Notes: generated by a model from the letters alone, not told the origin. A stretch of 64,000 nucleotides of DNA from Gemmatimonadota bacterium (GCA_028287235.1 JAQBQB010000018.1:124001-188000), one strand, 5' to 3'. Numbered from the stretch's first letter, positions 1,804-18,480 are shown. Numbers and translations are program-made.

Positions 1804-1884
1804 TTCGTGATGTGCGTTTGCGTACTGTTGCGACGTGCTGCGTTCGCTTCTAGAGACGCCCTTAGCGCGCGTTGGCATTTCGAT

Positions 1885-3009: not shown

Positions 3010-3012
3010 TTA

Positions 3013-3904: not shown

Positions 3905-3948
3905 TACCAACGACCTCGCACGTCAACGATTCCGTGTGCGCGGTGCGG

Positions 3949-4146
3949 TCACTGATGGGTCGTCAGAATCTTGACGACACGCTCAATTTTTCCCTTCTTG
4001 AGATACGTTCGGTTCTTCTTCTGGTGGTAGAACATGGCGACCGTTTGGAGCAGCTCGTCCTTTCGAAGCGCGCGGTACGCCCAGACGTGAAACAGATTTC
4101 CGCGCTCGCGGTCTCGTAGACTCGTCACGACGTCAGGTGCGCGCAT
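3949..4146 (-). CDS. 65-aa hypothetical protein, third gene of the TA unit
   Basis: The gene starts 12 nt after the stop of the antitoxin gene on the same strand, so it is probably cotranscribed with the toxin and antitoxin. The product is small and basic (VWAYRALRKDELLQTVAMF, then YHQKKNRTYLKKGKIERVVK). No motif or family is recognised. It may be an accessory part of the module, or a truncated remnant of a longer protein. Confidence 0.45.
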   Translation of the reverse strand: MRAPDVVTSLRDRERGNLFHVWAYRALRKDELLQTVAMFYHQKKNRTYLKKGKIERVVKILTTHQ

Positions 4147-4158
4147 AGAACGATCGGT

Positions 4159-4596: not shown

Positions 4597-4676
4597 TGTG
4601 CTACCCCGCACGATTAATGGGGTTGTGGAGCGGTGTCTCAACGGTCGGTCCGTGCCGCCGTAGGCTGAAGGTGACG

Positions 4677-5027
4677 CTACGCGCCACCCTCTGCGTCGAT
4701 CTGGGCTGCCAACGTGCGCAGGTACTTCTTTCCGGCTGAGCTGAGATCGTCGGATGCGCTCTTACTATACGCGAACAAGAGATATACCGTCAAGTTCTGT
4801 ACCACGTAGTAGTATATCACCCGTGCGCCCCCGCGCGATCCCTTTCCCTTGACCGGAAGGCGGACCTTCCTCAGGCCTCCCGAACCCGGAATCACATCTC
4901 CTGCGGTGGGGTCGGCGAGAAGAATCTCTTCCAGGTGCTGCACTTCGGCGTCCGTGATGGGGACGTCGGACGCTGAGTCAACAAAACTCTCGGTTTGGAT
5001 AAAGTGAAGAAGAGGGGTACGCGACAT
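4677..5027 (-). CDS. RelE/HigB-family toxin
   Basis: The 116-residue protein has the RelE/ParE-superfamily layout. An N-terminal helix region precedes TDAEVQHLEEILLADPTAGD, then the core GSGGLRKVRLPVKGKGSRGG, then ARVIYYYVVQNLTVYLLF and a C-terminal YSKSASDDLSSAGKKYLRTL. This is close to the HigB-2/RelE-like group of toxins with the GlyGlyxRKxR core and the aromatic YYY strand. Such proteins cleave mRNA at the ribosome. The antitoxin follows 80 nt downstream. A strong promoter sits directly against the start codon (see 5033-5061), implying a leaderless or nearly leaderless toxin message. Confidence 0.8.
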   Translation of the reverse strand: MSRTPLLHFIQTESFVDSASDVPITDAEVQHLEEILLADPTAGDVIPGSGGLRKVRLPVKGKGSRGGARVIYYYVVQNLTVYLLFAYSKSASDDLSSAGKKYLRTLAAQIDAEGGA

Positions 5028-5032
5028 GATTA

Positions 5033-5061
5033 AATGTACTACTGTGTGGTATGCTTGTCAA
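5033..5061 (-). promoter_or_regulatory. sigma-70-type promoter of the TA operon
   Basis: On the minus strand TTGACA (5061-5056) is followed after exactly 17 bp by TACATT (5038-5033). The toxin ATG begins at 5027, five bases after the -10 hexamer, so the expected transcription start falls on or next to the ATG. The region is AT-rich compared with its surroundings. Confidence 0.65.
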
Positions 5062-5069
5062 GCGTGTTC

Positions 5070-5705
5070 TCATGTCGGGCGAAGTCCCCTTGCGGCTTTC
5101 CATCGTTCTCGACTTGCTCGCGGATCGGAGCTGTGCATCTGCCGCTCGAGCTTCTCGAACGCTTCGAACACCTTTCGCTCATCGTCAGTCGCGGCCAACA
5201 CGAGCTCCTGTATGTCGACCCCGTCCCAGTCGTCGAGGGAAATGGGTTCGTCGCCGGAAATGGCGGTTGTGTCGGCGAGCATGTCGGGATCGATCGACGA
5301 TCGCGCTGACGCGGCCTCGTCGTCGGATTCTGATTCACACATGAGGAGGCTCGCCCATCGCCAAGCTTCCTTGTGCCACCACCGCACCCATTGCTCGCCG
5401 GCGAGCTGCTGGCTTGGAATGACCAGTCGTTTCCGTCCGAACCTGTCGGTCAGCCAGCGGCGGTGGAGACGGACGTACTGGGGCCGATTGATCTCGTGGC
5501 TGCGCACGATTTCGATGGCGTGCCAGATCACTCGTCGGCGGGCCGTTTCCAGAGACAGCCTCTCGCGCGATGCCCACGCCACCAACGCGGCGTGAACCGA
5601 ATGCGAACGTCTCCATTTGTCAGCGAGGCTCGCGACATCCGGATCAGATTCGGCGAGAGGTAGTGTGCCGATCGAGGTACAAACGCCACTGCCGCGGCGG
5701 CTCAC
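5070..5705 (-). CDS. hypothetical protein of element A
   Basis: This 211-residue protein is not recognised. It is rich in Arg and Trp in its N-terminal half (RRRVIWHAIEIVRSHEINR, then EQWVRWWHKEAWRW) and acidic in the middle (SESDDEAASARSSID, then DDWDGVDIQELVLAATDDE), ending in a helical basic tail. The GTG start at 5703-5705 follows a GAGGG with seven-base spacing. It is the first gene after att copy 2 on the minus strand and lies just upstream of the TA promoter. Codon pattern and a good ribosome site make it likely to be real. A DNA- or RNA-associated role is only a guess from composition. Confidence 0.55.
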   Translation of the reverse strand: MSRRGSGVCTSIGTLPLAESDPDVASLADKWRRSHSVHAALVAWASRERLSLETARRRVIWHAIEIVRSHEINRPQYVRLHRRWLTDRFGRKRLVIPSQQLAGEQWVRWWHKEAWRWASLLMCESESDDEAASARSSIDPDMLADTTAISGDEPISLDDWDGVDIQELVLAATDDERKVFEAFEKLERQMHSSDPRASRERWKAARGLRPT

Positions 5706-5846
5706 TGCTCGCCCTCAGGACGTGCAGTGGAACACCGAAGCCGGTGCGCGAGCTTGTGTGCCGAGACTCTGCTTTGACGTGCGCGGGTTGAATGGCCCGC
5801 TGAGTGGCCCAAACGAAAACGGCGCCCACCGCTGAGCGCCGTAAGT

Positions 5847-5902
5847 CCAACGGAGGGCGAGGGATTCGAACCCCCAAGTCCTTGCGGACGCCAGTTTTCA
5901 AG
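5847..5902 (-). repeat. att core copy 2, junction of elements A and B
   Basis: This is an exact 56-bp copy of the tRNA-Ser 3' half. Its left flank shares CGCCGTAAGT with copy 3 and its right flank starts TTC as in copy 1, so it is the hybrid site expected between two tandem integrants. It has no 5' tRNA half and should not give a functional tRNA. Confidence 0.9.
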
Positions 5903-5951
5903 TTCCGGGTTAGCCTTTTCGCCCGTTTCTAACATACTCTATTTCCCTGCT

Positions 5952-5978
5952 AAACCCCGACACCGAGCGTCGGGGTTT
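5952..5978. terminator. hairpin terminator next to att copy 2
   Basis: A 10-bp perfect stem (AAACCCCGAC / GTCGGGGTTT) with a 7-nt loop is followed on the plus strand by a run of five T. It lies 75 bp beyond the stop of the tape-measure gene (minus strand), so it probably acts in both directions and insulates element B from element A. Confidence 0.7.
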
Positions 5979-6053
5979 TTGCGTCTCTCTCGACGGTTTC
6001 CCTTGGGTTTGCGCCTGAATGTTCCCAGAACCTTCCCATCCGCGCTGCTCAGA

Positions 6054-9000
6054 TCATCTGTGGTTGTCTGCGGTGTAGCGCTGCCGACGCAATTCGGTCT
6101 CTTGGGACTTCACCGATTTATTCACGCTACCAATAGCATCAATGATCCCTGTGAAGCCCGTGCCCTGCTGTCGCACGATCGCTTTCTGTTCGCTCGAGTT
6201 ATCCTGCCGCAGTCCAGTGACCTCGGTCCGGAGTGCGCCAACCTCGGTCCGAAGGGCGCGAATCTCGGTGACCAAACCCTGATTTCCGCCCCCCGAGAGC
6301 ATCGACGATAGATCGTTGTTGCTCACAATGTGCGACGGACCGGTGACCTCGAGCTCAGGTCCGTGCTCGCCGACGACGCGCGCGCCGCCGGCGAAGTCTC
6401 CGCCGGACGCGAAGCCGGGAACGCCAAACTGCGTGGCGCCCGTGAGCGGATCGACATAGAACGACTGGGCGCCGGGTGGCACTAATGGTTGGATCGGTTG
6501 GTACGGCATGATCGGCGTCGGCGTCGGTGCACCGGGCTGGCCAGGATCGAAGTAGTTCGGCGGGAGCACCAGGTGAATGCCGTGAATCGCGTCGATCTGC
6601 CGCGCCACGCCGTTATCGTAGATCCCCTGGAGCCGGACGACCTCGCGAACCTGCGGCGAGTCGTACCCGTAGATCTTGGCGGTCTCGGTGAGTTGGCGCG
6701 CGTAGTAGTCGTCCTGCGCGGTCTTCTGGAGATCGAGCTGACGCACGGCGTCGAGCGTCGCGAGTTCCTGCGCGCTGGCCCCGTGATTGATGGCGTCGAT
6801 TTCCTGCTGCGTCACGCGCGTGAGATCGTTCTGGTTCCCGACCAGAATGTCGCGCTCGCCGGTGACGATCTCGCGACCGACGCCCGAGAGCGTGTCACGC
6901 AGGGTGTTGAACTGGTCGATGAGCGCCCCGTTCGGCGCCAGCGCCGCGTCGCGTGAGCGCTCGAGCTCTCCGATGACGGCGTCTTTCGTCAGTCGCGCGA
7001 GCGTGTTCGCGTCTTGCAGCTTCGCAAGCTCGTCCTGCATCAGCGCGATTTGCGCATTGAGCGCGTCGACCGTCTGCTGCTGGAGGGACGCCTGCTTGCT
7101 GTACTGCGATGCGAGCGTATCGGTCATCCCGCTCACCGTGTTGAAGATGTCGACATACGCCGACGTCGAGGCGTAGTCGCTCTTCGCGAGCTGGAGGTAG
7201 CTATTCGCCGCGCCGCCGAACTGGCCCGCGGCCGTCGCGTCGCCGCCCTGCGCTTTCGCGTAGAGCGCGTCGACCTGCGCCTTGGCCGCGTGGAGTTGGT
7301 CCAGTGGCGACAGCGGCGAGAGAGCGCCGGTCGTAAGGCCGTCGCGGAGCGTGTTGAGCGAGTTCGCCGCCTGCTGGAACGCCTGCAGCGTCGACTGCGC
7401 GATGGTCAGCGCCGACTGCGCGGTCTTGAGCTGAGCATTCAGCACGTCCGTCTGCGCTTTGATCTGCTGCTGCGCCTCGAGCTGGCCGCGCTGGAACAGT
7501 TGCACCAACCCAAGCAGTGCGAGCTCGTCGGGCTTGGCGCCGGCGGCGACCGCCGCGTTCGTCGCGACGCGCTGCTGCTCGGCGAGCGTCGCCTTCGCGG
7601 CGGCGTTGACCTGGCCGGTCAGCGTGAGGAATTGCGTCGCCAGCGACGCCATGGAGACGGTGTACCGCTCGGCCGCCGCTTTCGCCGCGTCGGACGCGGT
7701 CTTCTGGTCCTCCATCGCCTGCGTGAGCTTGAGCGCCGCGATCTGATCAGCAGTCCACCCAGCCTTGACGGCGGCATCGATCTCCTTCCGCTCCGCTTCC
7801 TGTCGAGCGAGCGCGTCGCCCTCGTCCTTGAGCCCAGCTGCGTACAACTGCCGCGTCTTAAGCGAGACGTCGACCTGGCGCGACGCCTCGGCCTGGGCAT
7901 CGGCAAGCGCTTTCGCTTCCGCCGTCTGCGCGGCGAGGATCGCGGTCACCTGATCCGAGTTCGCGCCGAACTGTTTCGTCGCGGCAGCCACCTCGTTTGT
8001 GTACTTGAGTTGCAGCGCGAGCGCATCCGCTTCACGAGTCAGCCCCTCAGCGCGGAGAATGCGCTCTTGCGCCGACTCGAGCGCGTCGGCACGAGCCTTC
8101 CGGTCGGCTTCGATCGCCTGCCGTTGAGCGAGGTTTTCATCGATCGTTGCTTGGGCGAGATCCTTCTCGCGCTGGACCTGCGCTTTGAGGCCCGGCTCGG
8201 CAGCGTCGATCGCATCCTTGAGCGCTTTGTACTGCGCAGTGATCTGCAACTGCGTGGCGTCTAGCGCCGTGCCGGTGCCGACGGAGGCGTTCGCCTGCGC
8301 CAGGTTGATGCGGACGGACTCTACGGCTTTTTGTAGGGCCTCGGCAGCCTTCCGGTGAGCGTCCGCGGCGCCCATCAATCCTCCGATGACACCAGTGAAT
8401 CCGCCAATGACTGCTCCCCACGGGCCCCCTAGTTCGAATCCAGCCGCTGCTCCGCCGACTGCGCCGCCCAGAATCCCCGTCGTTGTGCTGCCGGACTGCT
8501 GCCCGACGCTGAACCCGATCGATGCGCCGGCGAGTCCCGCCCCCATCAACTGGATTCGCTTGAGATACTCAGCGTATCGTTCGGAGTCGCTCGCATACTT
8601 CGCCGCCTCCCGCGCCGCGTGATCCTTGTCGGCCTGGGACCTCGCCGCCGCTTCAGCCTTGCGCGCTTCAGCTTGTTTCTTGGCCATCCCGTCGAGATCT
8701 GCGCTCAACTGCCGGAGCAGGTGAGCGGATCCAGCCTCCGCAGCCCTGAACATCGACGTCCACGACACCGAGCCGCCGCGCGTGGCTTGATCGAGGGCGT
8801 GCAATAGATCGCCGCCGAGAATCTTCGAGAGATTCGTGTACTGGTCCGCCTGGTCGCGGATTGCCTTCTCGTTGTCGGCGCCGGTCTTGGCAATCGCCTT
8901 CGTCTGATCGTTCAGCCATCTCATGGCGTCGGCGGTGTCCTTCATGGCGGTCGCCTGACGAATCGTCGTGGCGTTCTGACGTTCGTCCGCGTCGATCGCG

Positions 9001-10526
9001 GCGAGACGATCACTCAGCGCGACGCCTTCATAATCGTGCTGCGCGACGAGCCGCTGCGCCTGATGATCCAGGTGGTCGGCTAGGAGCTCGCGCGCCTCGC
9101 CCTCCGTGTGGAGGAGGGCGTTCTTCTCGGCAGATTTCGCGAGCTCGACGTTGTCGAGTTCGTTGACCTTCTGCATTGCGGCGATCTGCTTCGCGAGTCC
9201 GTCGAGAACCTTTTGCTGCTCGATGGTATCGATCGGGCCTACACTGACGCGCTCCACATGCGTTTTCGGGTTCATCGCCGCATCAAGTGACTCGGCTTGG
9301 GTGATGAGTGCCAAACGACGCACGTTGTCAGTCTGAGATTTGCCGAGCGCCTCGATCTCGGCGATGTCTCTCTTGTACAGCGCGATTGCGCGAGCGCGCT
9401 CGTCTTCTGTGGCGTGACCACTCTTGATCAGCGATGCCAGTTGATCGGCGTAGGCTTGATCCGACTCGGCCTTGGTCGCGTAGTCGATCTGCGACTTTCT
9501 CGCCTGCCACTGTTCGAGATCCGTTTGCGCCTGAAGGAGGTTTCTCTTTGCGCGCGCGACCTCATCTGCGTTGACCGGTCCGTCCTGCGAGTAGCCTCCG
9601 AGCGTGGCGTTGTAGCGCGATGATCCCGCAGATACCTTCGCCAGCGCATCTTGAGCAGCCGTGACTGCGGACCGTGCGGCACCGACCTGCAAATCGCCCA
9701 TCGCCATTTGCGCGGCGAACGTTTCGTCCTTCACTTTCTTCATCGCGGCGGCGACTCTCTCTGCGAACTTGTCAGCGTCACTCTCAAGCTGTTTCCACGC
9801 GAAGGACAACGCGGCCACGCCGGCGAGGACGCCGATCATCACGACCTGACCTACCCCGAATGCGCCAAGAAGCGACGCCCCGAGCCGATCGATCACCGGC
9901 AGCGTTCCCGTTGATCGGGCAACCAGGGAGAGAAGCCCTTGGCGCACGCGGCCCAGGCCCGCACCAGAGAGGTCGAATGACAACCCCGCAGCCGCATTCG
10001 ATGTGGCCATCTTCTCGTTCATCGCTATAGCTTCGATCTGCGCCAGCGTCATCGCCCGACTGGCATCGGTCACGCGCGATGTCGACCCGACCGACGTCGT
10101 TTGCGCTGCGACCAGTGCATCCTCCGCGGCCGTCAACTGCACGAGCTGGTCGGTTGCCAGGCCGAGCGAGGTCGCCTTCTCGCGGAGCCCGCGCGCCGAT
10201 GCGCTCAGCAAGTCGATGCCGGTGGCGCTCACGCCGTTCAGGTTCTGTGTGCTCTGCGAGAGCGTCGCAATCTGCTGCTCGAGCGCGCGGAGCGCCGCGC
10301 GCGATTGATCGTACTCGGCGCGCCCCTCCGCCTGCTGGCGTCCCATCTGCTCGTTGACGTCAATGAGCCGCTGCGTCGACGCTGCGTTGCGATCGATGCC
10401 AGTCGCGCTTTCCACGGCCGCGGTGCCGACAGCGCGAAGCCCCGCCGCGGACTCGTCGAGGGTTTGTTTCGCCCCCGGCGCTCCGATGAGGACGTCGAAT
10501 GATGCTTGGCTATCGCTCGTGGACAT
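6054..10526 (-). CDS. phage tail tape-measure protein
   Basis: This 1490-residue protein has the features of siphovirus tail length tape measures. There is a long Ala/Gln/Lys-rich helical body with coiled-coil pattern. Hydrophobic Gly/Ala-rich segments lie at about residues 210-245 (VGQVVMIGVLAGVAALSF) and 665-732 (GILGGAVGGAAAGFELGG). The C-terminal motif GGARVVGEHGPELEV, found near the end of many tape measures, is followed by a heptad-repeat tail (ALRTEVGALRTEV). A GAGGAG ribosome site precedes the ATG. In phages it sets tail length at roughly 0.15 nm per residue, so this one would fit a tail of about 200 nm. It is the largest gene of the element, and no other tail, head or packaging gene accompanies it. 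Confidence 0.85.
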   Translation of the reverse strand: MSTSDSQASFDVLIGAPGAKQTLDESAAGLRAVGTAAVESATGIDRNAASTQRLIDVNEQMGRQQAEGRAEYDQSRAALRALEQQIATLSQSTQNLNGVSATGIDLLSASARGLREKATSLGLATDQLVQLTAAEDALVAAQTTSVGSTSRVTDASRAMTLAQIEAIAMNEKMATSNAAAGLSFDLSGAGLGRVRQGLLSLVARSTGTLPVIDRLGASLLGAFGVGQVVMIGVLAGVAALSFAWKQLESDADKFAERVAAAMKKVKDETFAAQMAMGDLQVGAARSAVTAAQDALAKVSAGSSRYNATLGGYSQDGPVNADEVARAKRNLLQAQTDLEQWQARKSQIDYATKAESDQAYADQLASLIKSGHATEDERARAIALYKRDIAEIEALGKSQTDNVRRLALITQAESLDAAMNPKTHVERVSVGPIDTIEQQKVLDGLAKQIAAMQKVNELDNVELAKSAEKNALLHTEGEARELLADHLDHQAQRLVAQHDYEGVALSDRLAAIDADERQNATTIRQATAMKDTADAMRWLNDQTKAIAKTGADNEKAIRDQADQYTNLSKILGGDLLHALDQATRGGSVSWTSMFRAAEAGSAHLLRQLSADLDGMAKKQAEARKAEAAARSQADKDHAAREAAKYASDSERYAEYLKRIQLMGAGLAGASIGFSVGQQSGSTTTGILGGAVGGAAAGFELGGPWGAVIGGFTGVIGGLMGAADAHRKAAEALQKAVESVRINLAQANASVGTGTALDATQLQITAQYKALKDAIDAAEPGLKAQVQREKDLAQATIDENLAQRQAIEADRKARADALESAQERILRAEGLTREADALALQLKYTNEVAAATKQFGANSDQVTAILAAQTAEAKALADAQAEASRQVDVSLKTRQLYAAGLKDEGDALARQEAERKEIDAAVKAGWTADQIAALKLTQAMEDQKTASDAAKAAAERYTVSMASLATQFLTLTGQVNAAAKATLAEQQRVATNAAVAAGAKPDELALLGLVQLFQRGQLEAQQQIKAQTDVLNAQLKTAQSALTIAQSTLQAFQQAANSLNTLRDGLTTGALSPLSPLDQLHAAKAQVDALYAKAQGGDATAAGQFGGAANSYLQLAKSDYASTSAYVDIFNTVSGMTDTLASQYSKQASLQQQTVDALNAQIALMQDELAKLQDANTLARLTKDAVIGELERSRDAALAPNGALIDQFNTLRDTLSGVGREIVTGERDILVGNQNDLTRVTQQEIDAINHGASAQELATLDAVRQLDLQKTAQDDYYARQLTETAKIYGYDSPQVREVVRLQGIYDNGVARQIDAIHGIHLVLPPNYFDPGQPGAPTPTPIMPYQPIQPLVPPGAQSFYVDPLTGATQFGVPGFASGGDFAGGARVVGEHGPELEVTGPSHIVSNNDLSSMLSGGGNQGLVTEIRALRTEVGALRTEVTGLRQDNSSEQKAIVRQQGTGFTGIIDAIGSVNKSVKSQETELRRQRYTADNHR

Positions 10527-10759
10527 CCAGACTCCTCAACGCCTCACGGCGTGGTCGTGTGTAATCAGGTGCAGCTGGTGAGTGCGTCTTGCCGTACCTC
10601 CCCGAACGACTACTCCGGCAAGAGTGCACTCGGAAAACTATCGCTGGCGCGCGCGCTAGCTGTATTCTCGGCCAGTCTCCATGCTGGGTGATTTCCGAGT
10701 CGTTCCCGTGTCACAGAGAGAATCTTCTCGAATGCCCCCTCTCGAGATGTGATGACGTA

Positions 10760-11170
10760 CTAGCGGAGATACTTCTGGTTGAGCTTCGCGAGCTCGCGCT
10801 GGTACTCGGGCTCGAGCGCTTGCTGGCGCGTCATGCGCGCCTGGTCGCTCATGTTGTCGGCCAACTGGAGGATCTCGGCGGCCTGCCGATCGCGCGCGCT
10901 GCGCTCGTCGTCGAGCGACTTCGGCGTTGCGCCCTCGGGCAGCACGCGGAGCTTGGCCGTGGCAACGAGTTCTTGGTGCGCAGACAGCGATGCGCCGTCG
11001 GTGACGTGGATGTACGCGAGCGTGAAGCTCCCGTCCATCTGCTGGGCGTACTGCTGGTGCTTCTCCTTCGGCACGAACTGCAGGTTGGCCAACGTGAGGG
11101 GCAACGGCCCGTTCGCGTTCACCGGTTGCGCGCCTGGCAAGTCGCCGGCGTTGTCGTTTTTGTCAGCCAT
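10760..11170 (-). CDS. unknown element B protein, paralogue of the preceding gene
   Basis: This 136-residue protein starts at MADKNDNAGDLPG. Its middle part (LPLTLANLQFVP, then GSFTLAYIHVTDGASLSAHQ and AKLRVL) matches the product of the overlapping upstream gene at many positions. Its C-terminal half is a helical, Arg/Gln-rich extension (SDQARMTRQQALEPEYQREL) that the paralogue lacks. The gene overlaps the upstream one by 8 nt and lies 233 bp before the tape-measure gene. The position recalls the tail chaperone pair of siphoviruses, but no programmed frameshift site is seen, and the family is unknown to me. Confidence 0.6.
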   Translation of the reverse strand: MADKNDNAGDLPGAQPVNANGPLPLTLANLQFVPKEKHQQYAQQMDGSFTLAYIHVTDGASLSAHQELVATAKLRVLPEGATPKSLDDERSARDRQAAEILQLADNMSDQARMTRQQALEPEYQRELAKLNQKYLR

Positions 11171-11573
11171 CGAGAACCTCGAGAGTGTTGGCGGCGATCC
11201 GGCGCTGGTGCGCCGTGACCGATACGGTGTCGGATGCGAACACGTAGGCGAGGTTGAACTGACTGCCGACGTGTCGGTATTGCGGGTGGACGCTATCGGG
11301 CAGGCCATCGAGCGTCGTGACGTTCAGCGGAAGCGGTCGGTCAGTCCGGTTTCTCCCGGCCGCGGCGTCATCGGCACGAAGCGGTGCCACGGTGTGCTCG
11401 GCGGGATCGAAGTCGTCGTGATTAATCAGAACCGTCCCGCCTGTAACCTCGTCGTCAACGACTCGAACGGTGGCGAGACGAGTATGGTCTGGGTTCCACG
11501 ACACGGGCGGCCCCATGTAGTCCTGATCGTGCGGGTGCGGTGCGAAACGGGATGCAGCAGAGTCGTGATTCAT
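11163..11573 (-). CDS. unknown element B protein, first of a tandem paralogue pair
   Basis: This 136-residue protein has an N-terminal acidic and His-rich stretch and a C-terminal domain (LPLNVTTLDGLPDSVHPQY, then GSQFNLAYVFASDTVSVTAH, then AANTLEVLDG). That domain shares a conserved pattern with the next gene: Leu-Pro-Leu, a Phe-x-Leu-Ala-Tyr core, an Asp-x-x-Ser step, Ala-His-Gln and a terminal Leu-x-Val-Leu. The ATG at 11571-11573 follows TGAGG with seven-base spacing. Both paralogues are 136 residues long although their extra regions lie at opposite ends. Function is unknown. A tail-associated or DNA-associated role is only inferred from position. Confidence 0.6.
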   Translation of the reverse strand: MNHDSAASRFAPHPHDQDYMGPPVSWNPDHTRLATVRVVDDEVTGGTVLINHDDFDPAEHTVAPLRADDAAAGRNRTDRPLPLNVTTLDGLPDSVHPQYRHVGSQFNLAYVFASDTVSVTAHQRRIAANTLEVLDG

Positions 11574-11617
11574 CAAACGGCCTCAAAGGTGAGAGAACTG
11601 TGAACGTGGGCTAACTG

Positions 11618-11866
11618 TCAGACTTCGGTGTGTGCGCTCTCGCGGCGTTGCGACGGCGGCGCCGTTCGCGGCAGCCTCACCGGTCCGCCGTGGTGAGCCA
11701 CGATCTCGTAGCCGCGAGCACGCAGACGGGAGCGCGTGGCGCGCGCGTTCGGGTGCCAGTCGCCAGCGGGATGCGTAACGGCCGCGCGGCGGTTGCCGTA
11801 GTCGTGGACGGTCGCCGGCATGTCGAGGTCGTTGGGGTCGGTTGGCTCGGGCGGATACCAGGTCAT
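11618..11866 (-). CDS. 82-aa hypothetical protein, element B
   Basis: A small protein starts MTWYPPEPTDPNDLDMPATV and contains HPNARATRSRLRARGYEIV, which resembles a short DNA- or RNA-binding helical segment followed by a disordered basic tail. Its ATG overlaps the stop of the replication gene in an ATGA arrangement, so the two are translationally coupled. No family is recognised. A GC-rich overlapping frame exists on the same strand but lacks this coupling. Confidence 0.5.
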   Translation of the reverse strand: MTWYPPEPTDPNDLDMPATVHDYGNRRAAVTHPAGDWHPNARATRSRLRARGYEIVAHHGGPVRLPRTAPPSQRRESAHTEV

Positions 11867-12936
11867 GCGACGGCCTCCATTTTTCCAATCTGGATTGCGT
11901 TGGCTTCGAGGCGCGTGACGATCTCCCATTCGACCTTGTCGGCCGGGAGCGTGCCGATCCGGTCCCAAAGCTTGATCGTCTTCATGTCGTTGGCGAAGGT
12001 CGGCCAAGCAGTCGGATCGGTCGCGGCAGTATCGAGGCGCGCGAAGTAGTCGTCGTTGGCGCCGCCTGTTCGCCAGAGGTTGTACTTGTCGCAGAGCGCG
12101 CTGATGCGTTTCGCCAGTGCCATCATTTGCCCCTTGCCGCTGCTCGTCGCAGCTGCGCGTACAGTCGGCGCGTCGTAGGGCTCCGACCAGCGCTCGTCTG
12201 GACCGAAGAACGTCTTCGCCTGCATCACGAATTCGGTTTGCAGCTTGCCCGTTGATGCGCAGAAGCGAGCGTAGCGCTCGACGCCGGCGTGCATGTCCTC
12301 CGCGGTGACGCCTGCCGTCCGACGCGCCTGCCAGGCCTTGAACGCGGCGTGCTTGGGCTGGTTGCCAGCGCGAGGCGGGTAAATGGCCCACGTTGCAGCG
12401 AATGCGTCGGGGTACGCGTGCTTTTGCTGTTTTGTCGAACCGCCGTCAGCCGACCTCGCTGCTGGTGCGTCGTCAGACGTACCAAGAGTTGTTGCTTTTA
12501 ACTGAGTAAGAGACAGAGACAGAGTGTTGACGTTTGGTTGCCCCTGTGGTTGGTCAATGGTACCAACTGTGGTTGAACCACCCTTGGAACCACCGTTCAA
12601 CCTTGCTTGAGCACTGGCGACACCACCCTGACGCGACTTCTCGCGCCAGTCCGCTTGCTTGGCTCGCTCGGCATCGAGACGCGGGTTGTACTGTTTCCCG
12701 TCGCGCTCGACGAAGCAGCGGGAGACGCGCTTCCACGCCGCGCGGAACTTCGGTTGCGTCGTCCGAGTCCAGCGCGCGAGCTCCTCTTCGTCGAACACGA
12801 ACCCGACCTCGTTCCACTCGAGGCAGAGTAGCAGCACGTAGACGCCGACCTCTTCGGACGTCATGGTGCCGACCTTGCCGGAGCCGACGAATTCGTCTGG
12901 GTAGAACTGGAAGGCGGGAGATTTATTGGCGGTCAT
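11863..12936 (-). CDS. DUF1376-type phage replication protein
   Basis: The N-terminus FQFYPDEFVGSGKVGTMTSE, then EVGVYVLLLCLEWNEVGFVF and WKRVSRCF is the DUF1376 (YdaU-like) domain found in phage replication initiators and helicase loaders. A low-complexity linker with Gly/Ser/Thr/Gln follows (about residues 110-170). The C-terminal part FAATWAIYPPRAGNQPKHAA, then FKAWQARRTAGVTAEDMHAG resembles the C-terminal domain of lambda O/DnaT-like phage replication proteins. It is translationally coupled to genes on both sides (4-nt overlaps at 12933-12936 and 11863-11866). It probably recruits host replication machinery to the element's origin, which may lie in the gene's AT-richer linker segment near 12480-12560. 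Confidence 0.75.
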   Translation of the reverse strand: MTANKSPAFQFYPDEFVGSGKVGTMTSEEVGVYVLLLCLEWNEVGFVFDEEELARWTRTTQPKFRAAWKRVSRCFVERDGKQYNPRLDAERAKQADWREKSRQGGVASAQARLNGGSKGGSTTVGTIDQPQGQPNVNTLSLSLTQLKATTLGTSDDAPAARSADGGSTKQQKHAYPDAFAATWAIYPPRAGNQPKHAAFKAWQARRTAGVTAEDMHAGVERYARFCASTGKLQTEFVMQAKTFFGPDERWSEPYDAPTVRAAATSSGKGQMMALAKRISALCDKYNLWRTGGANDDYFARLDTAATDPTAWPTFANDMKTIKLWDRIGTLPADKVEWEIVTRLEANAIQIGKMEAVA

Positions 12937-13367
12937 CGCGCCTGGTCCCTGCGGGGCGACGACATCTGCCCGCGTTCGATGATCTCCTCATGCTCGGCGA
13001 TCCACGTTCGGATCTCGCTGGCGACGAACACCAGCTCCCCGTCGAGCTTGCGATACGGCAGGAGTGCTACGCCCGTCTTTGTCGACGTGTGGCGGTAGCA
13101 CCACGACAACGGCCGGCCGATCGCCTCCGCGAGCTCGCGCACTCCAAGCCGCGTCTCGGCGGGTGCGACCCATAGTCGTTCGCGCCACGTCGCCGGCGTC
13201 TCCGCGGCGATCGGTATGGCTGGGTCGGCGAGCGTCGGGGTGATCTCGACGAGCTGCGCGTGCAGCGCGGCAGCGTCGAGCTTCGTGCCCGGCAGGGCCG
13301 CGCCCAGCCACTCGATGAGCGCCGGAAGCGAGTTTGGAGTACTCGTCCTTCCCGAGTTGCTTCCCAT
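12933..13367 (-). CDS. MerR/excisionase-like HTH protein
   Basis: The 144-residue protein has a C-terminal half that looks like a winged-helix excisionase or plasmid-replication regulator (LGVRELAEAIGRPLSWCYRH, then ALLPYRKLDGELVFVASEIR, then TWIAEHEEI). In such domains the helix-turn-helix is followed by a wing containing the LPYRKxxGxxxF pattern, which is clearly present. The N-terminal half is Ala/Pro-rich and unassigned. It precedes the DUF1376 gene with a 4-nt overlap. A role in replication control or directionality of integration is inferred from the domain and position. Confidence 0.65.
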   Translation of the reverse strand: MGSNSGRTSTPNSLPALIEWLGAALPGTKLDAAALHAQLVEITPTLADPAIPIAAETPATWRERLWVAPAETRLGVRELAEAIGRPLSWCYRHTSTKTGVALLPYRKLDGELVFVASEIRTWIAEHEEIIERGQMSSPRRDQAR

Positions 13368-13369
13368 GC

Positions 13370-13495
13370 TTACGCGCTCGCGAACGCAAGTCGTTGCGAG
13401 CGCAGACGATTGCGCGGCCCAGCGCTGCGGTCTGTGTAACTGCTGCTCGACTGCGGCGGACCTACCCGACGCTGCAACAGCGTTGGTGAAGTCAT
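13370..13495 (-). CDS. possible 41-aa bridging ORF
   Basis: The ATG overlaps the stop of the upstream HTH gene (TGATG) and the TAA lies 2 nt before the next start codon, so it fills the gap exactly and would keep ribosomes moving through the operon. The product (MTSPTLLQRRVGPPQSSSS onward) is basic and shows no motif. It may be only a coupling ORF or not a real protein. Confidence 0.3.
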   Translation of the reverse strand: MTSPTLLQRRVGPPQSSSSYTDRSAGPRNRLRSQRLAFASA

Positions 13496-13737
13496 CACGC
13501 GCCGACCACCGCAGCGTGATGGTTGAGCTTCGATGGCGACTTGGTGAGCTCGCGCGCGCGCTTCAGGCGCTTCACCGACTCCTTGGTAACCCACCACCTG
13601 CCGCTGACTTCTTCACGAAAGCCGTCCAACACGCCTTTCTGCACGCGTCCGTAAATCCAAGTCGTATTTTCACCGAGCTCAATACCAGCCTGTGCGGCTG
13701 GCATGTAGTTCTCGGCAAGGTCTGCACGTATCGTCAC
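13495..13737 (-). CDS. small HTH DNA-binding protein
   Basis: The 80-residue product contains a helix-turn-helix of the excisionase/AlpA kind (MPAAQAGIELGENTTWIYGR, then VQKGVLDGFREEVSGRWWVT, then KESVKRLKRARELT). The WWVTKESV wing ending is typical of Xis-like proteins. The GTG at 13735-13737 follows AGGGAG with six-base spacing. A longer frame reaches 13935 but its extra N-terminal residues look random. The gene opens the replication operon of element B and lies 549 bp downstream of the integrase stop. Confidence 0.55.
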   Translation of the reverse strand: MTIRADLAENYMPAAQAGIELGENTTWIYGRVQKGVLDGFREEVSGRWWVTKESVKRLKRARELTKSPSKLNHHAAVVGA

Positions 13738-14285
13738 CGTCGGCTCCCTGGGTTGGAGAAACGTGTTCGTCTCTCTCTCAGGGTAGATGCTCGGCCAATT
13801 CGCGACAATGTGAATTGCTGCGATGGCGTCGTGTTTTGGTACGGAGTGGGACGGTGAGAGGGCTACGTCTACGCAAGTCGATGCGCGCGCTGTGTTTAGA
13901 TAACTGACATTGCTGCGCCGCTGCACTTGAGCCACTCCAACGGCGCTCTTAACCGGCTGGAACGCTGGTTTGGCAACCCAGCCCCGCTACAGCAATCATC
14001 CTCTGTGAGAGCAGAGGTAGGCCCTTGAGCGGCACTACTCGCGGCACGAGTCCGCGAAAACCCGCTCCCCTGCAGCACAAGTCGCGATTTCGAGCCTGGG
14101 TGCTCCGTTCTCGCCGGAAGGAGGCTGCATCAGAGAAGTCTAAAACGCACGGCCTCGATTTCGTCGGGGTCGTGTCGGGGTAGACGGGGACCGAATCAGG
14201 CGTCGCGTGAGGGCCTCCCCCCTATGAAACACGCTCTTTCAGCGTACCCCGACGTACTTCACTGTGTCGGGGTAGGCGGGCAGGT
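13738..14285. other. gene-free stretch of element B with structured sites
   Basis: There is no convincing gene between the integrase stop and the small HTH gene. The stretch holds three perfect short hairpins (13964-13982, 14000-14017, 14039-14057) and a cluster of GTCGGGGTA motifs (14174-14182, 14245-14253 inverted, 14266-14274, plus a one-mismatch copy at 14163-14171). Promoters for the minus-strand operon must also lie here. It may contain a small RNA, integrase accessory sites or a replication origin. Confidence 0.5.
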
Positions 14286-15461
14286 CTACGCTTGCTTCTC
14301 CGACGTCGGCGATGCGACGGCCGCGAGCGGCGCAACGAGCGAGCGCAGGTGTTCCTTCGACAGGTGCGTGTACCCCATCGTGGTGCGCAAGTCGGAGTGG
14401 CCCAGCGCCTCCTTCACGTGCACCGGGTTGGCGCCGCCGGCGAGCCACGTCGTCACCCGCCGATGGCGCAGGTCGTGACGGTGGAAGGCGTCAGGAATGC
14501 CCGCGGCAGCGGCGGCCGTGTCGAACGCCGAGCGCATCGACTTCACGCGCTGGCCAGCCTTGCAGCCCCGGCGATCGCGCTCGTGGTGGAACACCCACGG
14601 CGAATGCACGCCGTGATACGTGACGAGACGGACGCGCGCGGCGTGATCGCGAAGCGCCTGGTGCAGCCGCGGCGTCATCGGCACGAAGCGAGATTTCCCG
14701 CTCTTCGTCCGGTGCCCCTCCTCGCCGCTCCGGATCTCGAGGAACCCTTCAGCCAGATCGACGTCGGTCCAGCGCAGGTGTAGCACCTCGGAGAGGCACC
14801 GGCCGCCTGTCTCGCCGAGCGCGAGTGTGTAGAGCCAGAGTTGCGGGCTGTGTTCACACTTCGCTAGCAACGTCTCGTACTGCTCGTCGCTGAGCAGGAC
14901 CGGCGAGCGCGGGTCGGCCTTGGGCTGCTCGACGCGCGCGACCGGGTTGCCCTCACGGAGCTCAAGGCGATCGGCGAAGTCGAAGAGCCGATGCAGCACG
15001 GCCCGATCTTTCTGGAGCGTGCGGTTGGAGATCGGCGCGGTCGACGGCGTCTGATGCTTGCCGGCGCGGCGCTGCGTGCGACGCCACGACAGATAGCCCT
15101 TCACTTCCTTCGTGCCGATCCGATCCAGCGTCGGGTCGCCGAGCTCGCCGGCGACAAAGTATTCCTCGAGCATCGTGAACGAGTCACCGTAGGCGCGTCG
15201 CGTACCCGGGGCGAGGCCTGGGACCTCGTCGCGTCGGTAGAGCGCCAGCAGTTCCGAGAATCGCGTGTCGTGATCGACACCGCGGCGTGAGCGATCGCGT
15301 TGTTTCATGAGCTCGCGGTGCTTCTCTCTGGCGAACTTTTCCGCGGCTTTGCGATCGAACGTGTCGAGACGGTACGTGTAGCGCCTTCCGCCGCAGTACA
15401 GGATCAACCGCTGATGCGTCCCGCGGTTCTCGAATGTGCCTGGATGCTTCTTGGCCATCAC
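14286..15461 (-). CDS. tyrosine-family integrase
   Basis: The 391-residue protein has an N-terminal arm-binding segment (YCGGRRYTYRLDTFDRKAAE), a SAM-like core-binding domain (about 65-165) and the catalytic domain. The catalytic residues are visible: Arg221 in ETGGRCLSEVLHLRW, the HDLR motif at 329-332, His355 in EALGHSDLRTTMGYTHLS and the nucleophile Tyr364. It should recombine within the tRNA-Ser anticodon-loop att core. It overlaps the preceding gene (ATGA) and so is cotranscribed with it. It is placed unusually: 2.9 kb from att copy 3 and 8.4 kb from copy 2, whereas integrases normally abut an att site, as the truncated one in element A does. Confidence 0.92.
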   Translation of the reverse strand: MMAKKHPGTFENRGTHQRLILYCGGRRYTYRLDTFDRKAAEKFAREKHRELMKQRDRSRRGVDHDTRFSELLALYRRDEVPGLAPGTRRAYGDSFTMLEEYFVAGELGDPTLDRIGTKEVKGYLSWRRTQRRAGKHQTPSTAPISNRTLQKDRAVLHRLFDFADRLELREGNPVARVEQPKADPRSPVLLSDEQYETLLAKCEHSPQLWLYTLALGETGGRCLSEVLHLRWTDVDLAEGFLEIRSGEEGHRTKSGKSRFVPMTPRLHQALRDHAARVRLVTYHGVHSPWVFHHERDRRGCKAGQRVKSMRSAFDTAAAAAGIPDAFHRHDLRHRRVTTWLAGGANPVHVKEALGHSDLRTTMGYTHLSKEHLRSLVAPLAAVASPTSEKQA

Positions 15462-15775
15462 TCAACCTCAGATTTCACCAAAGATAGCGACGGCGGCACG
15501 GGCTTCGGGCCGCCGGGAATCATTTGGATAGACTCACGTAGAAGCCGGATGCCCTCAGCGGTCACAGCACACGCATCGTCAGCGTCCTTTCTGATCTGCC
15601 GAATCGCGGCGAACGCCGTGCGCTGCGCTTTTACGAGTTCGGCAATGCTCTCCATGGTGGTTACGGCGACAGCGGCGACGGAACGAACCTCCGCGCGGAG
15701 TTGCATGTGTGCCGCGACGAGCTCATTGAAGGTCGTCGGCACATCCTCGTCCTCGCGCTCGTCCTCGTCGCTCAC
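15458..15775 (-). CDS. 105-aa hypothetical protein upstream of integrase
   Basis: An acidic N-terminus is followed by a continuous amphipathic helix (FNELVAAHMQLRAEVRSVAA, then MESIAELVKAQRTAFAAIRQ), suggesting a small coiled-coil protein. The GTG start at 15773-15775 overlaps the stop of the SWIM gene, and its own stop overlaps the integrase start, so all three are coupled. No family is recognised. It could be an integration partner or a structural helper. Confidence 0.55.
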   Translation of the reverse strand: MSDEDEREDEDVPTTFNELVAAHMQLRAEVRSVAAVAVTTMESIAELVKAQRTAFAAIRQIRKDADDACAVTAEGIRLLRESIQMIPGGPKPVPPSLSLVKSEVE

Positions 15776-16086
15776 GCGGTCCGCTGCCGTCGTGCGCGCA
15801 TCGTCCGGATCTCGCGGTCCGCGTCGGCGAGCAGCCGGCCGAGTATCAACACCAGGTCGCCATCGCCGACGTGCAGCCGCGCCGCGAGCTCATGGAGACA
15901 CGGGCCGCCGCGGACCTGCGCATCGCGGCAACGGCACGACGCCGGCTCGTCGAGATCGACAAGGTAGTGCGGCTCGTGGCGACCCTCGACGAGGAAGCGG
16001 TTCGCGCCGACGCGCGTGACGACGCGTGCGGCAGCGCGACGCAAACGGTCGGGGTCGACGGTCGGGCAGGGTAGGGTATTCGGCAT
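15772..16086 (-). CDS. SWIM-like zinc finger protein
   Basis: The 104-residue protein contains VVTRVGANRFLVEGRHEPHY, then DEPASCRCRDAQVRGGPCLH, which gives a Cys-x-Cys followed by Cys-x-His, the SWIM zinc-finger signature. The short strand segment before it also fits SWIM domains. SWIM fingers bind DNA or protein and occur in transposases, MEKK1 and phage proteins. The ATG at 16084-16086 follows GAGGG with seven-base spacing. A longer frame to 16230 lacks support. It starts the three-gene coupled unit that ends with the integrase. Confidence 0.65.
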   Translation of the reverse strand: MPNTLPCPTVDPDRLRRAAARVVTRVGANRFLVEGRHEPHYLVDLDEPASCRCRDAQVRGGPCLHELAARLHVGDGDLVLILGRLLADADREIRTMRARRQRTA

Positions 16087-16112
16087 GCGGGTACCCTCGG
16101 ATACGGGTTCGG

Positions 16113-16496
16113 TTACGCGACCCTCAGTTGGCGGCGCACGCCTTTGCCGCTCCTGGCGAGCGCGCCAGCGTTCAGGAAAACCCATTCGAGCAGCATCAGA
16201 TCGCCCTTCTTGCTGTTGCAGGATCTGCACGCCGGGACAACGTTTTCCCTGGTGTGCGAGCCTCCGCGACTGATTGGAATGACGTGATCCATCCCAAGTT
16301 GATCCTTACCAATTCCGGTCGGGCGCCGATCGCAGTAGGCGCATCGGTATTCATACCGAGCGCAGGTCTCTAGCCACTCGTACATCGAGAAATTGCTTTC
16401 GCCGGCATCGCCTCCCAACAACGGAGCGTAGTGTCCTACTCGGCGCTCAGCATTCAGGCAGTCGCGTCGCGCAAACCGAGTGATCCTTAGCATCAT
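16113..16496 (-). CDS. HNH endonuclease
   Basis: The protein has the complete HNH layout. CAYCDRRP supplies the first zinc knuckle, LGMDHVIPISRGGSHTREN the catalytic His and structural Asn, and VPACRSCNSKKGD the second CxxC. Nothing but the nuclease domain is present, plus a short N-terminal tail. The start near 16496 (MMLRITRF) was chosen over a longer Arg-rich extension. In phage-like elements such nucleases help packaging or act as homing nucleases. No terminase is present here, so a homing or anti-competitor role is as likely. It lies between the repressor and the SWIM gene. Confidence 0.82.
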   Translation of the reverse strand: MMLRITRFARRDCLNAERRVGHYAPLLGGDAGESNFSMYEWLETCARYEYRCAYCDRRPTGIGKDQLGMDHVIPISRGGSHTRENVVPACRSCNSKKGDLMLLEWVFLNAGALARSGKGVRRQLRVA

Positions 16497-16525
16497 GGCA
16501 TAAGAATGCCGTATGTGTGCATCGC

Positions 16526-16771
16526 TCACGTCCGCCGCCGCTTCTTCGGCGGATCGATTACGTCGGGCTGATACTGCAATAGGTCGCCGACGTCGCAACC
16601 GAACGCACGGCAAAGCGCGTCCAGCACCTTTAGCGAAATGCGCACATCGGTATTTGGACGCTCGCTAACCAGCCGATAAACGGTCGGTTGCGGCAGGCCG
16701 GATTCTTGGGCGAGCCGATAGGCCGACCATTTCCGCTTCTCGAGAAGCTGCGCCAGTCGAAAGACGATCAC
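16526..16771 (-). CDS. XRE/YozG-like HTH repressor
   Basis: The translation IVFRLAQLLEKRKWSAYRLA, then QESGLPQPTVYRLVSE, then SLKVLDALCRAFGCDVGDLL is the compact Cro/C1-type domain of YozG-like regulators. The GTG at 16769-16771 was chosen because an AGGTG lies six bases upstream and the family starts at this point. An ATG at 16822 would add 17 non-conserved residues. The gene points away from the plus-strand operon at 17012, and palindromic operators lie between them, the layout of a lysogeny switch. It probably controls both directions. Confidence 0.8.
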   Translation of the reverse strand: MIVFRLAQLLEKRKWSAYRLAQESGLPQPTVYRLVSERPNTDVRISLKVLDALCRAFGCDVGDLLQYQPDVIDPPKKRRRT

Positions 16772-16807
16772 TCGGGCACCTGTTGGAGTACCCGAAGATG
16801 ATATGCG

Positions 16808-16879
16808 CGTGTGCACGGTCATGTAACTAATGTAAACGTGTGCACGCTATTGCGCTATACTAACGCATATGTTAGTATA
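16808..16879. promoter_or_regulatory. operator region of element B genetic switch
   Basis: Between the repressor and the divergent operon lie a near-perfect palindrome with 9-bp arms (TATACTAAC, six-base spacer, GTTAGTATA; 16856-16879) and two copies of CGTGTGCACG (16808-16817 and 16838-16847) spaced 30 bp apart. The region is markedly AT-richer than its surroundings. These are good candidates for repressor binding sites governing the divergent promoters. Confidence 0.6.
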
Positions 16880-17011
16880 CGGCTACAACAGAAACGGGAC
16901 CGCTCGGCGCATCCCCGCTAAGAGATGCCGAACGATCCCGCCCACGCACCCCGAGGGGCACGCACCTGCAGTATACAGGTCGCCGCGCCCCTCGACAACC
17001 GGAGAGGGATG

Positions 17012-17305
17012 ATGATGCTCACCGCCGATGGCGCCTACCTCCTGCAGGATCCGACCGAGTACGAAGCGCAGCTCGAGTATCGCCGCGAGCGCGAGCCGCG
17101 CGCGATCGTCGCCGAGCGTGAACGGGCGCGCAGCGCGTTCGTCCAGTCCGCCGAGCGCCACGGCGCGCCGGCGAGCGCCGAGCCAGCCACGCCCGCGGCG
17201 CGTACCAGCCGTATCGACGTCGCCGCGACGTTCGCGAAGCTGTTCGACGCCCATTACTGCGACGGCGACGCGACTTACCCATGGGGCATGCGGGGGGCAC
17301 TCTGA
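17012..17305 (+). CDS. hypothetical protein, first gene of divergent operon
   Basis: The small protein starts at one of three consecutive ATG codons (17009-17017). GGAGAGGG at 17001-17008 gives best spacing for the second or third. The sequence ADGAYLLQDPTEYEAQLEYR, then REREPRAIVAERERARSAFV is a charged helix, followed by a Pro/Ala linker and a conserved-looking end (TFAKLFDAHYCDGDAT). No family is recognised. It is the promoter-proximal gene opposite the repressor, so it is likely among the first genes expressed on induction. Confidence 0.5.
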   Translation: MMLTADGAYLLQDPTEYEAQLEYRREREPRAIVAERERARSAFVQSAERHGAPASAEPATPAARTSRIDVAATFAKLFDAHYCDGDATYPWGMRGAL

Positions 17306-17985
17306 TGGCCGCGCCGATGCATCTACCCGTCGATGGGATTCGGGATCTTGACGACGAAGCGCTGTTCGCGCTGTGGGCTCGCGAAGTCGGAGATACGCCA
17401 TGGGAGGACATGACGCCTCGCCAAAGCGAGATCCATATCGAGCGCAAGCGACGGCGAGCCAGCGCGCACTTCGCGGGAGGGGCATCACGGTCCGTCATCG
17501 TGCAATCGAACGTCCTGCCGGCTGAGCGAGCGTTCGCCGCACACATCCTCTCACGTGCGTGGGCGTACCTCGGATGGTCAGTCGACGACGTTTACAGCCA
17601 CTACCGAACAGTCTTGCCCAACGATCTACTGCTAACGCACGAACAGATTCTCGAGTGCGTCGACGGCCGGAGATTTCCAGAGGAACACATGATCGTCAGC
17701 GCCGAGCGGGCAATGCGGCACACGGCAGAAAAGATTTGCGGAAGGAAGATCGAACCCGACGAATCTTATCCGTTCGCGCGCCCGCGGCCGCCGCGGCATA
17801 TCAGTCGCTTGCTCGCCGGCTTGTCGCTTCTCCGGATGACGGCCACGGCGCGCAAAGCGTTCTGGGTTTTCCTGACCGATGGGAAGGATGATCTGTCGCT
17901 ATCCGGCGCTTGGGTGCCGCAACTCGCAGCGCTATTTCCGGAAGTCGATGTCAGCGTGAAGGGCGTCGCCGGGAGGATCCGCTGA
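17305..17985 (+). CDS. 226-aa hypothetical protein, element B
   Basis: The ATG overlaps the preceding stop (TGATG). The protein reads as a folded, mostly helical protein with aromatic residues (ALFALWAREVGDTPWEDMT, then HILSRAWAYLGWSVDDVYSH, then LLRMTATARKAFWVFLTDGK). I recognise no domain. It is the middle gene of a three-gene operon opposite the CI-like repressor, the place where phages and satellites keep early regulators, replication or anti-host genes. Its composition is like that of the neighbouring element genes. Confidence 0.5.
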   Translation: MAAPMHLPVDGIRDLDDEALFALWAREVGDTPWEDMTPRQSEIHIERKRRRASAHFAGGASRSVIVQSNVLPAERAFAAHILSRAWAYLGWSVDDVYSHYRTVLPNDLLLTHEQILECVDGRRFPEEHMIVSAERAMRHTAEKICGRKIEPDESYPFARPRPPRHISRLLAGLSLLRMTATARKAFWVFLTDGKDDLSLSGAWVPQLAALFPEVDVSVKGVAGRIR

Positions 17986-18278
17986 TGCCCCGCTCCGCAG
18001 ACGCGCCCGCCTTCGATGTCTTTACGACGAAGCACGCTGATGTCGTATTGGGTATGCGAATCGCCGCACGCGCGACCGTGTTCTCTGACAACCGCGACGG
18101 CGTCGAGGTCGACATCAGCGGTCGTGACTTCGCCCAGACGAGTGCCGGGCCGTCAAACGTTCAGTTCCAAGTACAGAACGCCGAGTCCATTCGCGATCTC
18201 GCGCGGACGCTGCTACGGCTCGCCGATACGGCAGAAGCGGCCGGCATCTTCCGTGACTTCACCGTGAGCACCCGCTGA
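17985..18278 (+). CDS. 97-aa hypothetical protein, element B
   Basis: The ATG again overlaps the preceding stop (TGATG). The product (FDVFTTKHADVVLGMRIAAR, then ATVFSDNRDGVEVDISGRDF, then SIRDLARTLLRLADTAEAAG) looks like a small alpha/beta protein with strands first and a helix at the end. No family is recognised. The gene ends 120 bp before the tRNA-Ser att copy, so it is the element's last gene on this side. The intervening 118 bp show nothing beyond the att flank. Confidence 0.5.
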   Translation: MPRSADAPAFDVFTTKHADVVLGMRIAARATVFSDNRDGVEVDISGRDFAQTSAGPSNVQFQVQNAESIRDLARTLLRLADTAEAAGIFRDFTVSTR

Positions 18279-18393
18279 TGATCGCCGGCGACACGGAGGA
18301 TCAGGGGGCAACGGTTGCCCTGGCCGATCGGCGAAGAAACCTTCCCCAAAGCTTCCCGAGGCTCTCCACGCGTAACCGTCGAACGCCGTAAGT

Positions 18394-18449
18394 CCAACGG
18401 AGGGCGAGGGATTCGAACCCCCAAGTCCTTGCGGACGCCAGTTTTCAAG
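18394..18449 (-). repeat. att core copy 3, inside the intact tRNA-Ser
   Basis: This is the third 56-bp identical copy. Here the core continues into the complete tRNA gene. The left flank CGCCGTAAGT is shared with copy 2 and therefore belongs to the element side. The core ends in the anticodon loop (CTTG), so crossover takes place in the anticodon region. Confidence 0.9.
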
Positions 18450-18480
18450 ACTGGTGCAATAGCCATTCTGCCAGCCCTCC
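18398..18480 (-). tRNA. tRNA-Ser (anticodon TGA)
   Basis: The minus strand folds as a class II tRNA. A 7-bp acceptor stem (GGAGGGC / GCCCTCC) is followed by a D arm and the anticodon arm CCAGT-CTTGAAA-ACTGG, with TGA at positions 34-36. A long variable arm (GTCC-GCAA-GGAC) is diagnostic of Ser, and the T arm contains TTCGAAT. The CCA end is not encoded. It decodes UCA/UCG codons. It is the integration target for elements A and B, and the incoming att copy restores the 3' half, so function is kept. Confidence 0.95.

Follow-up and report, generated by a model that had tools for sequence, protein, structure and literature searches.

A probable phage satellite in a Gemmatimonadaceae genome carries a tape-measure protein as its only recognised virion protein

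Why would a small integrated element with its own integrase, repressor and replication gene encode a tape-measure protein (TMP) and no other recognisable part of a virion? The question is raised by element B, a 12.6 kb element bounded by attachment (att) sites and integrated at tRNA-Ser(UGA) in a Gemmatimonadaceae genome of 5.7 Mb. It occupies positions 5847-18449 of a 64,000-nucleotide stretch of this genome (GCA_028287235.1 JAQBQB010000018.1:124001-188000), hereafter called the window. Our analysis indicates that element B is probably a phage satellite whose own TMP would be built into particles borrowed from a helper phage. An earlier, sequence-only reading of the window had proposed a satellite that supplies its own tail-length ruler. 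The satellite part of that proposal has gained support, since TMP-carrying elements recur and two of them lie beside prophages with a related TMP; the ruler part has not, because the TMP lengths match within these pairs.

The relatives searched were Gemmatimonadaceae, including Gemmatirosa kalamazoonensis and a Gemmatimonadaceae metagenome-assembled genome (at most ~300 genomes, many of them draft). Genes were called with a simple open reading frame (ORF) scorer, several of the relatives' prophages were read in part only, and the element B proteins were searched against the Pfam and PHROG profiles. The 1490-residue ORF of element B has an intact frame and a strong coding signature (GC content of 0.47 at second and 0.79 at third codon positions; GC2 and GC3). 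No Pfam or PHROG tape-measure model matched it. It is, however, homologous to TMPs that lie in tail operons of phages or prophages, in G034 (L015, a complete operon; E = 4e-41), G004 (L016, also complete; 5e-24), a Gemmatirosa prophage (4e-22), G178 (3e-19) and G227 (4e-14), and it is also related to the TMP of an element in Gemmatirosa that is described below. Its nearest relatives are ~30% identical over 800-1000 residues, and a glycine-rich hydrophobic segment at residues ~660-735 aligns in most of the related TMPs. From this homology and a C-terminal motif, the ORF is accepted as a TMP. Searches of viral contigs, phages and plasmids with the same protein found no relative. Two further matches were not used as evidence of phages: that in G045, where the stretch holds host-like genes, and that in G132, which was short and weak.

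Three further att-bounded elements, of 13-15 kb, encode a TMP, and no gene for a capsid, portal or large terminase was found in them. The Gemmatirosa (G020) element is 14,997 bp long and was found on a 20,952-bp contig that repeats itself after 14,997 bp. A chromosomal copy is 99.98-100% identical, with a 19-nt overlap between its ends where greA terminates (3' end). In the contig the att site is joined, which fits an excised circle and would equally fit a tandem array. The genes are those of an integrase, an AlpA-like protein (HTH_17), a DUF5906 primase, a repressor, a 1024-aa TMP and small proteins, and family searches recognised no head or other tail gene. The G010 element spans 14.2 kb at tRNA-Asn, is flanked by exact 45-nt repeats, and encodes an integrase, an AlpA-like HTH_17 protein, a replication protein, a DnaB-like helicase, a gpZ-like minor tail protein (phrog_1924, 1e-13), a 116-aa protein, a 901-aa TMP (phrog_4704, 8e-6) and a small terminase subunit (TerS; phrog_57, 2e-22). 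A viral-contig scan with this TMP found nothing. The G073 element comprises 12.9 kb between 46-nt repeats (96% identical) at tRNA-Gly, with genes for an integrase, a D5/DUF5906 primase, AlpA-like proteins (assigned by sequence resemblance) and a 1335-aa TMP (TMP_3, PF20155, 7e-56); its small genes gave no convincing match to a structural family.

Two other elements carry different virion genes. The satellite-like element in G075 (L064 786-14958) comprises 14.2 kb between 21-nt repeats at the tmRNA gene and has no TMP; it encodes an integrase, a relative of the 139-aa protein of element B, a large terminase subunit (TerL) in two ORFs (PF03237, 7e-10), and an 825-aa tail-hub-like protein that resembles the protein following the TMP in G178 (6.5e-125). 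The G178 element (L124 6446-18036), 11.6 kb long, sits at the same tRNA-Ser(UGA) as element B, and has an integrase of the same clade (50% identity), a homologue of the 144-aa protein of element B, and TerL as the only virion-related gene seen. In this sister TerL stands in place of the TMP. The virion genes carried are thus a TMP in four elements, TerL in the tRNA-Ser(UGA) sister, and terminase plus a tail-hub-like protein in G075. Because the G010, G073, G075 and G178 elements were reached through replication, 139-aa or integrase genes (the replication gene for G010, the 139-aa gene for G073) and not through the TMP, the frequency of TMPs in this small sample is not a product of a TMP search.

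In two cases a TMP element and a complete prophage with a related TMP reside in one genome, and the recurrence across genera together with these pairs supports the satellite reading. An apparently complete siphoprophage on plasmid 1 of Gemmatirosa (NZ_CP007129.1, 1,106,233 bp) encodes a DUF4055 portal (7e-41), a tail-tube-like protein, a TMP of 1021 aa, a tip protein of 1593 aa and a terminase assigned by position. The TMPs of element and prophage are 73% identical over 1016 residues, with a ratio of nonsynonymous to synonymous substitution rates (dN/dS) of 0.41. Outside the TMP the two share essentially one helix-turn-helix (HTH) gene, 81% identical over 196 nt, which adjoins the small terminase gene in the prophage (L022 36907-37197) and lies at L017 10550-10915 in the element; it could be a shared late regulator or the site of a packaging signal. 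The G073 prophage has Terminase_3 (3e-35), a portal and a 1280-aa TMP that is 48% identical to that of the element, with a dN/dS of 0.43 that is rough because synonymous sites are near saturation; here, too, there is little DNA in common outside the TMP. The TMP of the G227 phage is slightly closer to that of the G073 element (56%), and the resident prophage therefore need not be the donor. In both pairs the sequence comparison shows the pattern of purifying selection (dN/dS 0.41-0.43). The lengths are nearly equal (1024 and 1021 aa in Gemmatirosa, 1335 and 1280 aa in G073, element first), and the divergence is localised, to the N-terminal third in the Gemmatirosa pair and to the middle and C-terminal part in the G073 pair.

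In the Gemmatirosa plasmid-1 prophage (L022 / G020:C3), the DUF4055 portal was found twice, 53,058 bp apart and with equal scores, which suggests a duplicated prophage or a feature of the assembly.

The elements are linked to one another by different genes in different combinations. Repressors are related between element B and the Gemmatirosa element (8e-9), between the Gemmatirosa and G010 elements (2e-10) and, more weakly, between B and G010 (0.004). The Gemmatirosa and G010 elements share an integrase (2e-66) and AlpA (9e-18), B and G010 have a replication protein in common (9e-24), and the 139-aa family is common to B, G073 and G075, in three genera. The TMPs of B and the Gemmatirosa element are related; that of G010 is of a different type. 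Links to phages exist as well: the AlpA-like genes of the G073 element match the start of the G227 phage contig (5e-13), and its primase is similar to a primase in the Gemmatirosa prophage (1e-73). Neither the satellite integrases nor the 139-aa proteins found a match in the full prophages that were read. Sharing of this kind is easier to explain by modular satellites than by the independent decay of several phages.

The features of element B are as follows.

5847..5902: att copy at the distal end, common to elements A and B; a third copy lies at 1748-1803.
6054..10526, minus strand: TMP, 1490 aa, last gene before att; homology to TMPs in tail operons.
10760..11179, minus strand: 139-aa protein; belongs to a small family that is also present in the elements of G073 (E = 3e-8) and G075 (7e-8).
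11163..11576, minus strand: 137-aa protein, a paralogue of the preceding one, whose N-terminal part has a weak similarity to a small post-capsid gene of the G073 phage.
11618..11866, minus strand: 82-aa hypothetical protein; no family match.
11863..12936, minus strand: replication protein with DUF1376 N-terminus, primosomal/DnaD-like; phrog_9327 (2e-30), homologue in the G010 element (9e-24).
12933..13367, minus strand: 144-aa protein; homologues co-occur with a related integrase within elements of L122, L124, L125 and L127 (1e-28 to 1e-18).
13495..13935, minus strand: small protein, 146 aa, possibly DNA-binding; no family match.
14286..15461, minus strand: tyrosine integrase, 391 aa; PF00589 (4e-23), phrog_1 (2e-56).
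15458..15775, minus strand: 105-aa hypothetical protein (ORF call); start and stop overlap with its neighbours.
15772..16230, minus strand: SWIM zinc-finger protein; PF04434 (1e-5); the L125 homologue adjoins a 144-aa homologue (2e-8).
16113..16613, minus strand: HNH endonuclease; PF01844 (1.6e-13), phrog_8660 (2e-21).
16526..16822, minus strand: Cro/C1-type HTH repressor; PF13443 (1e-17), homologous to the Gemmatirosa element repressor (8e-9) and weakly to that of G010.
16925..18278, plus strand: divergent operon of three hypothetical proteins (126, 225 and 97 aa); ORFs, no family matches.
18394..18449: att copy on the tRNA side; exact 56-nt core within the 3' half of the tRNA gene, 96% identical over 75 nt to 5828-5902.
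18398..18480, minus strand: tRNA-Ser(UGA), the integration target (ARAGORN).

The exact bounds described in the sequence-only reading hold, the core recurring at 5847-5902 and 18394-18449, and the integrase, repressor, replication gene and nuclease that it had named all matched Pfam or PHROG families. Its view of the TMP as the only recognisable virion gene also stands, the identity of the protein resting on the tail-operon homologues and not on a TMP model. Most genes lie on the minus strand, in the order repressor, HNH, SWIM, 105 aa, integrase, 146 aa, 144 aa, replication protein, three small genes and TMP, while the three hypothetical genes beyond the repressor run the opposite way. The Pfam and PHROG searches found no head, portal, terminase, tail-tube or tip gene among the element B proteins, and the 139- and 137-aa genes that precede the TMP did not match a tail assembly chaperone family. 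No capsid-size gene (sid, cpm, ccm) or known packaging-redirection gene was recognised. Phage-inducible chromosomal islands (PICIs) and Staphylococcus aureus pathogenicity islands (SaPIs) are marked by an AlpA/Stl-type switch and a packaging-hijack gene (TerS, cpm or ppi); in element B the repressor was present, and AlpA and a packaging gene were both missing from the matches. A search for defence families returned generic HNH matches only. As in phage satellites, element B is att-bounded with its own integrase, has its own replication module and repressor, and holds an incomplete set of virion genes. Nor does it look like a degenerate prophage: the genes are intact and overlapping, the frames are undisrupted, and the one structural gene is full-length.

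The AlphaFold model of the 139-aa family (pLDDT 59) has one confident long helix only, a poor fold that gives no function. A match to the 139-aa gene in G008 (E = 0.008) was dropped because it sits among host genes. The GC-rich hairpin between the TMP ORF and att has a z of -1.4 against shuffles (whole stretch) and is not exceptional as a fold. The tandem neighbour at the same att site, element A (window 1748-5846), looks decayed; a C-terminal fragment of an integrase (~1885-2229, 3e-24 against the element B integrase) adjoins a transposase-like ORF (2151-2795). Element A also contains a RelE toxin gene (4677-5027) and an HTH antitoxin gene (4159-4641).

How might such a satellite work? When a tailed helper, probably of siphovirus type, grows in the cell, element B would excise and replicate, and its DNA would be packaged in the proteins of the helper. 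The satellite TMP would replace that of the helper in the tail core, giving chimeric tails on the satellite particles. Since a TMP is also ejected and assists the passage of DNA through the inner membrane, such an exchange would chiefly alter the entry of satellite DNA into the next cell, or allow escape from TMP-directed exclusion or defence. We rejected a switch of tail length as an improbable purpose, because the TMP lengths are nearly equal in both co-resident pairs.

Several points weigh against element B being a satellite of this kind. Its excision, packaging and transfer are postulated from sequence, and the searches found no packaging gene. At ~30% identity, selection on the window TMP could not be tested reliably. 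The sequence-only reading had looked to a host prophage with a similar TMP, which is present in the Gemmatirosa and G073 genomes and was not seen in that of the window: no second TMP homologue, and hence no resident helper, is visible there, nor is there a match to the DUF4055 portal, Terminase_6N or Terminase_3. As the G010 genome also showed no portal or terminase of the tested families, the helpers of these two elements would have to come from outside. Finally, a full prophage in G034 holds both a related TMP (4e-41) and a related replication gene (1e-31), which makes an origin of element B from a phage by deletion conceivable.

We nevertheless consider it unlikely that element B is simply a prophage reduced by deletion, in which the TMP was kept by chance. 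In the G034 prophage the TMP and replication gene have the same order and orientation as in element B, the 137-aa gene has its weak resemblance to a small post-capsid gene of the G073 phage (2e-4), and in the neighbouring element A the integrase fragment is broken by a transposase-like gene, all of which would suit such decay. However, elements in at least three other genera are condensed in the same way while their TMPs, att sites and replication modules differ, and the TMP frame of element B is intact over 1490 codons. Elements that combine this integrase clade with the 144-aa gene lie at several sites, and none of them showed a complete structural module in the stretch that was read. In the Gemmatirosa pair and in the G073 pair, element and prophage have little DNA in common beyond the TMP, unlike a deletion derivative of the prophage in question. 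The sequence-only reading had expected a remnant to have close relatives in which the same genes accompany capsid, terminase and tail genes; we found full phages with a related replication gene or TMP, and none with the element B integrase or repressor in the stretches read. Descent by deletion and a present function as a satellite are not mutually exclusive, and the recurrence argues for function.

It is similarly doubtful that the TMP of a satellite serves as a weapon, made early or in excess so that it poisons or titrates the tail assembly of the helper and protects the population. Satellites and prophages are known to direct defences at tail assembly (Rta, PMC12987554; Tai, PMC11364771), and the satellite TMPs are similar enough to those of the putative helpers to compete with them. 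However, the 1024- and 1335-codon TMPs appear to be under purifying selection along their length, as complete tape measures and not dominant-negative fragments would be, and in a satellite of Vibrio cholerae the TMP is incorporated into the particle and needed for transduction (PMC12987554). That the 1490-aa protein has lost its tape-measure function and taken on another role in the host or element, such as a membrane pore or large scaffold, is very improbable: the lack of a Pfam or PHROG TMP match, the ~30% identity to known TMPs and the lack of a visible helper are outweighed by homology over 800-1000 residues to TMPs of real tail operons and by the clear TMPs of equivalent elements.

Beyond the satellite reading of element B itself, we tentatively suggest that the Gemmatimonadota may host a broad group of satellites, each with one or a few exchangeable virion-morphogenesis genes taken from temperate phages and kept diverged, in which the TMP swap would mainly reroute DNA entry or evade TMP-directed exclusion in the recipient.

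Among known systems, element B resembles PICIs/SaPIs and P4-like satellites in being a small integrative element with an integrase, a divergent repressor switch and a replication gene; the G010 element also has an AlpA-like gene and TerS. At the level of gene content it differs from them in having no recognised capsid-size gene or known packaging-redirection gene, and it belongs to another phylum. Capsid-forming PICIs (cf-PICIs) carry capsid genes, whereas none of the elements described here does. Like these elements, there are cf-PICIs with a predicted tmp (Extended Data Fig. 10, PMC12987554). The 16.8 kb helper-dependent element AH14b of Pseudomonas has one tail-related gene resembling that of a co-resident helper, but this gene encodes tail assembly protein I instead of a TMP, and the particles seen from the helper lacked tails (PMC4936722).

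The closest parallel is with the phage-inducible chromosomal island-like elements (PLEs) of V. cholerae. The sequence-only reading had taken a satellite with its own TMP to be new, a claim overtaken in March 2026, when PLEs were reported to incorporate their own TMP into chimeric tails, and other satellites were noted to have putative tmp genes (PMC12987554). All PLE variants encode a TMP and a tail assembly chaperone, PLE11 virions contain the PLE TMP and not that of the phage, and deletion of the PLE tmp reduces transduction by 96-99.9% (PMC12987554). Like the elements here, PLEs are integrative, have their own replication and integration genes, and encode a TMP that differs from that of the helper without the rest of the tail (PMC12987554). 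They differ in also carrying the chaperone and, in PLE11, a baseplate hub (PMC12987554), whereas three of our elements have no recognised tail gene apart from the TMP. The PLE helper, ICP1, is a virulent phage whose tail is contractile, and its TMP shares ~20% identity with that of PLE11 (PMC12987554); here, the candidate helpers are temperate phages, and in the two pairs the satellite TMP has 73% and 48% identity to that of the co-resident prophage. The Gemmatimonadota elements appear to be a new lineage, probably unrelated to PLE and in another phylum, that follows a principle already known.

What satellites gain from their own TMP, and how widespread the habit is, was left open in the PLE study (PMC12987554). 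TMPs meet the inner membrane at injection, changes in the TMP shift the route of entry, and the SNIPE defence works through TMPs (PMC13190303). The elements described here extend the own-TMP habit to another phylum and to elements that are probably unrelated, and their candidate helpers are temperate and co-resident. Their equal TMP lengths argue against a length switch, and the localised divergence points to specific contacts or injection functions. Moreover, the TMP pairs are close enough for the differing segments to be mapped, which makes the question of benefit testable by segment swaps.

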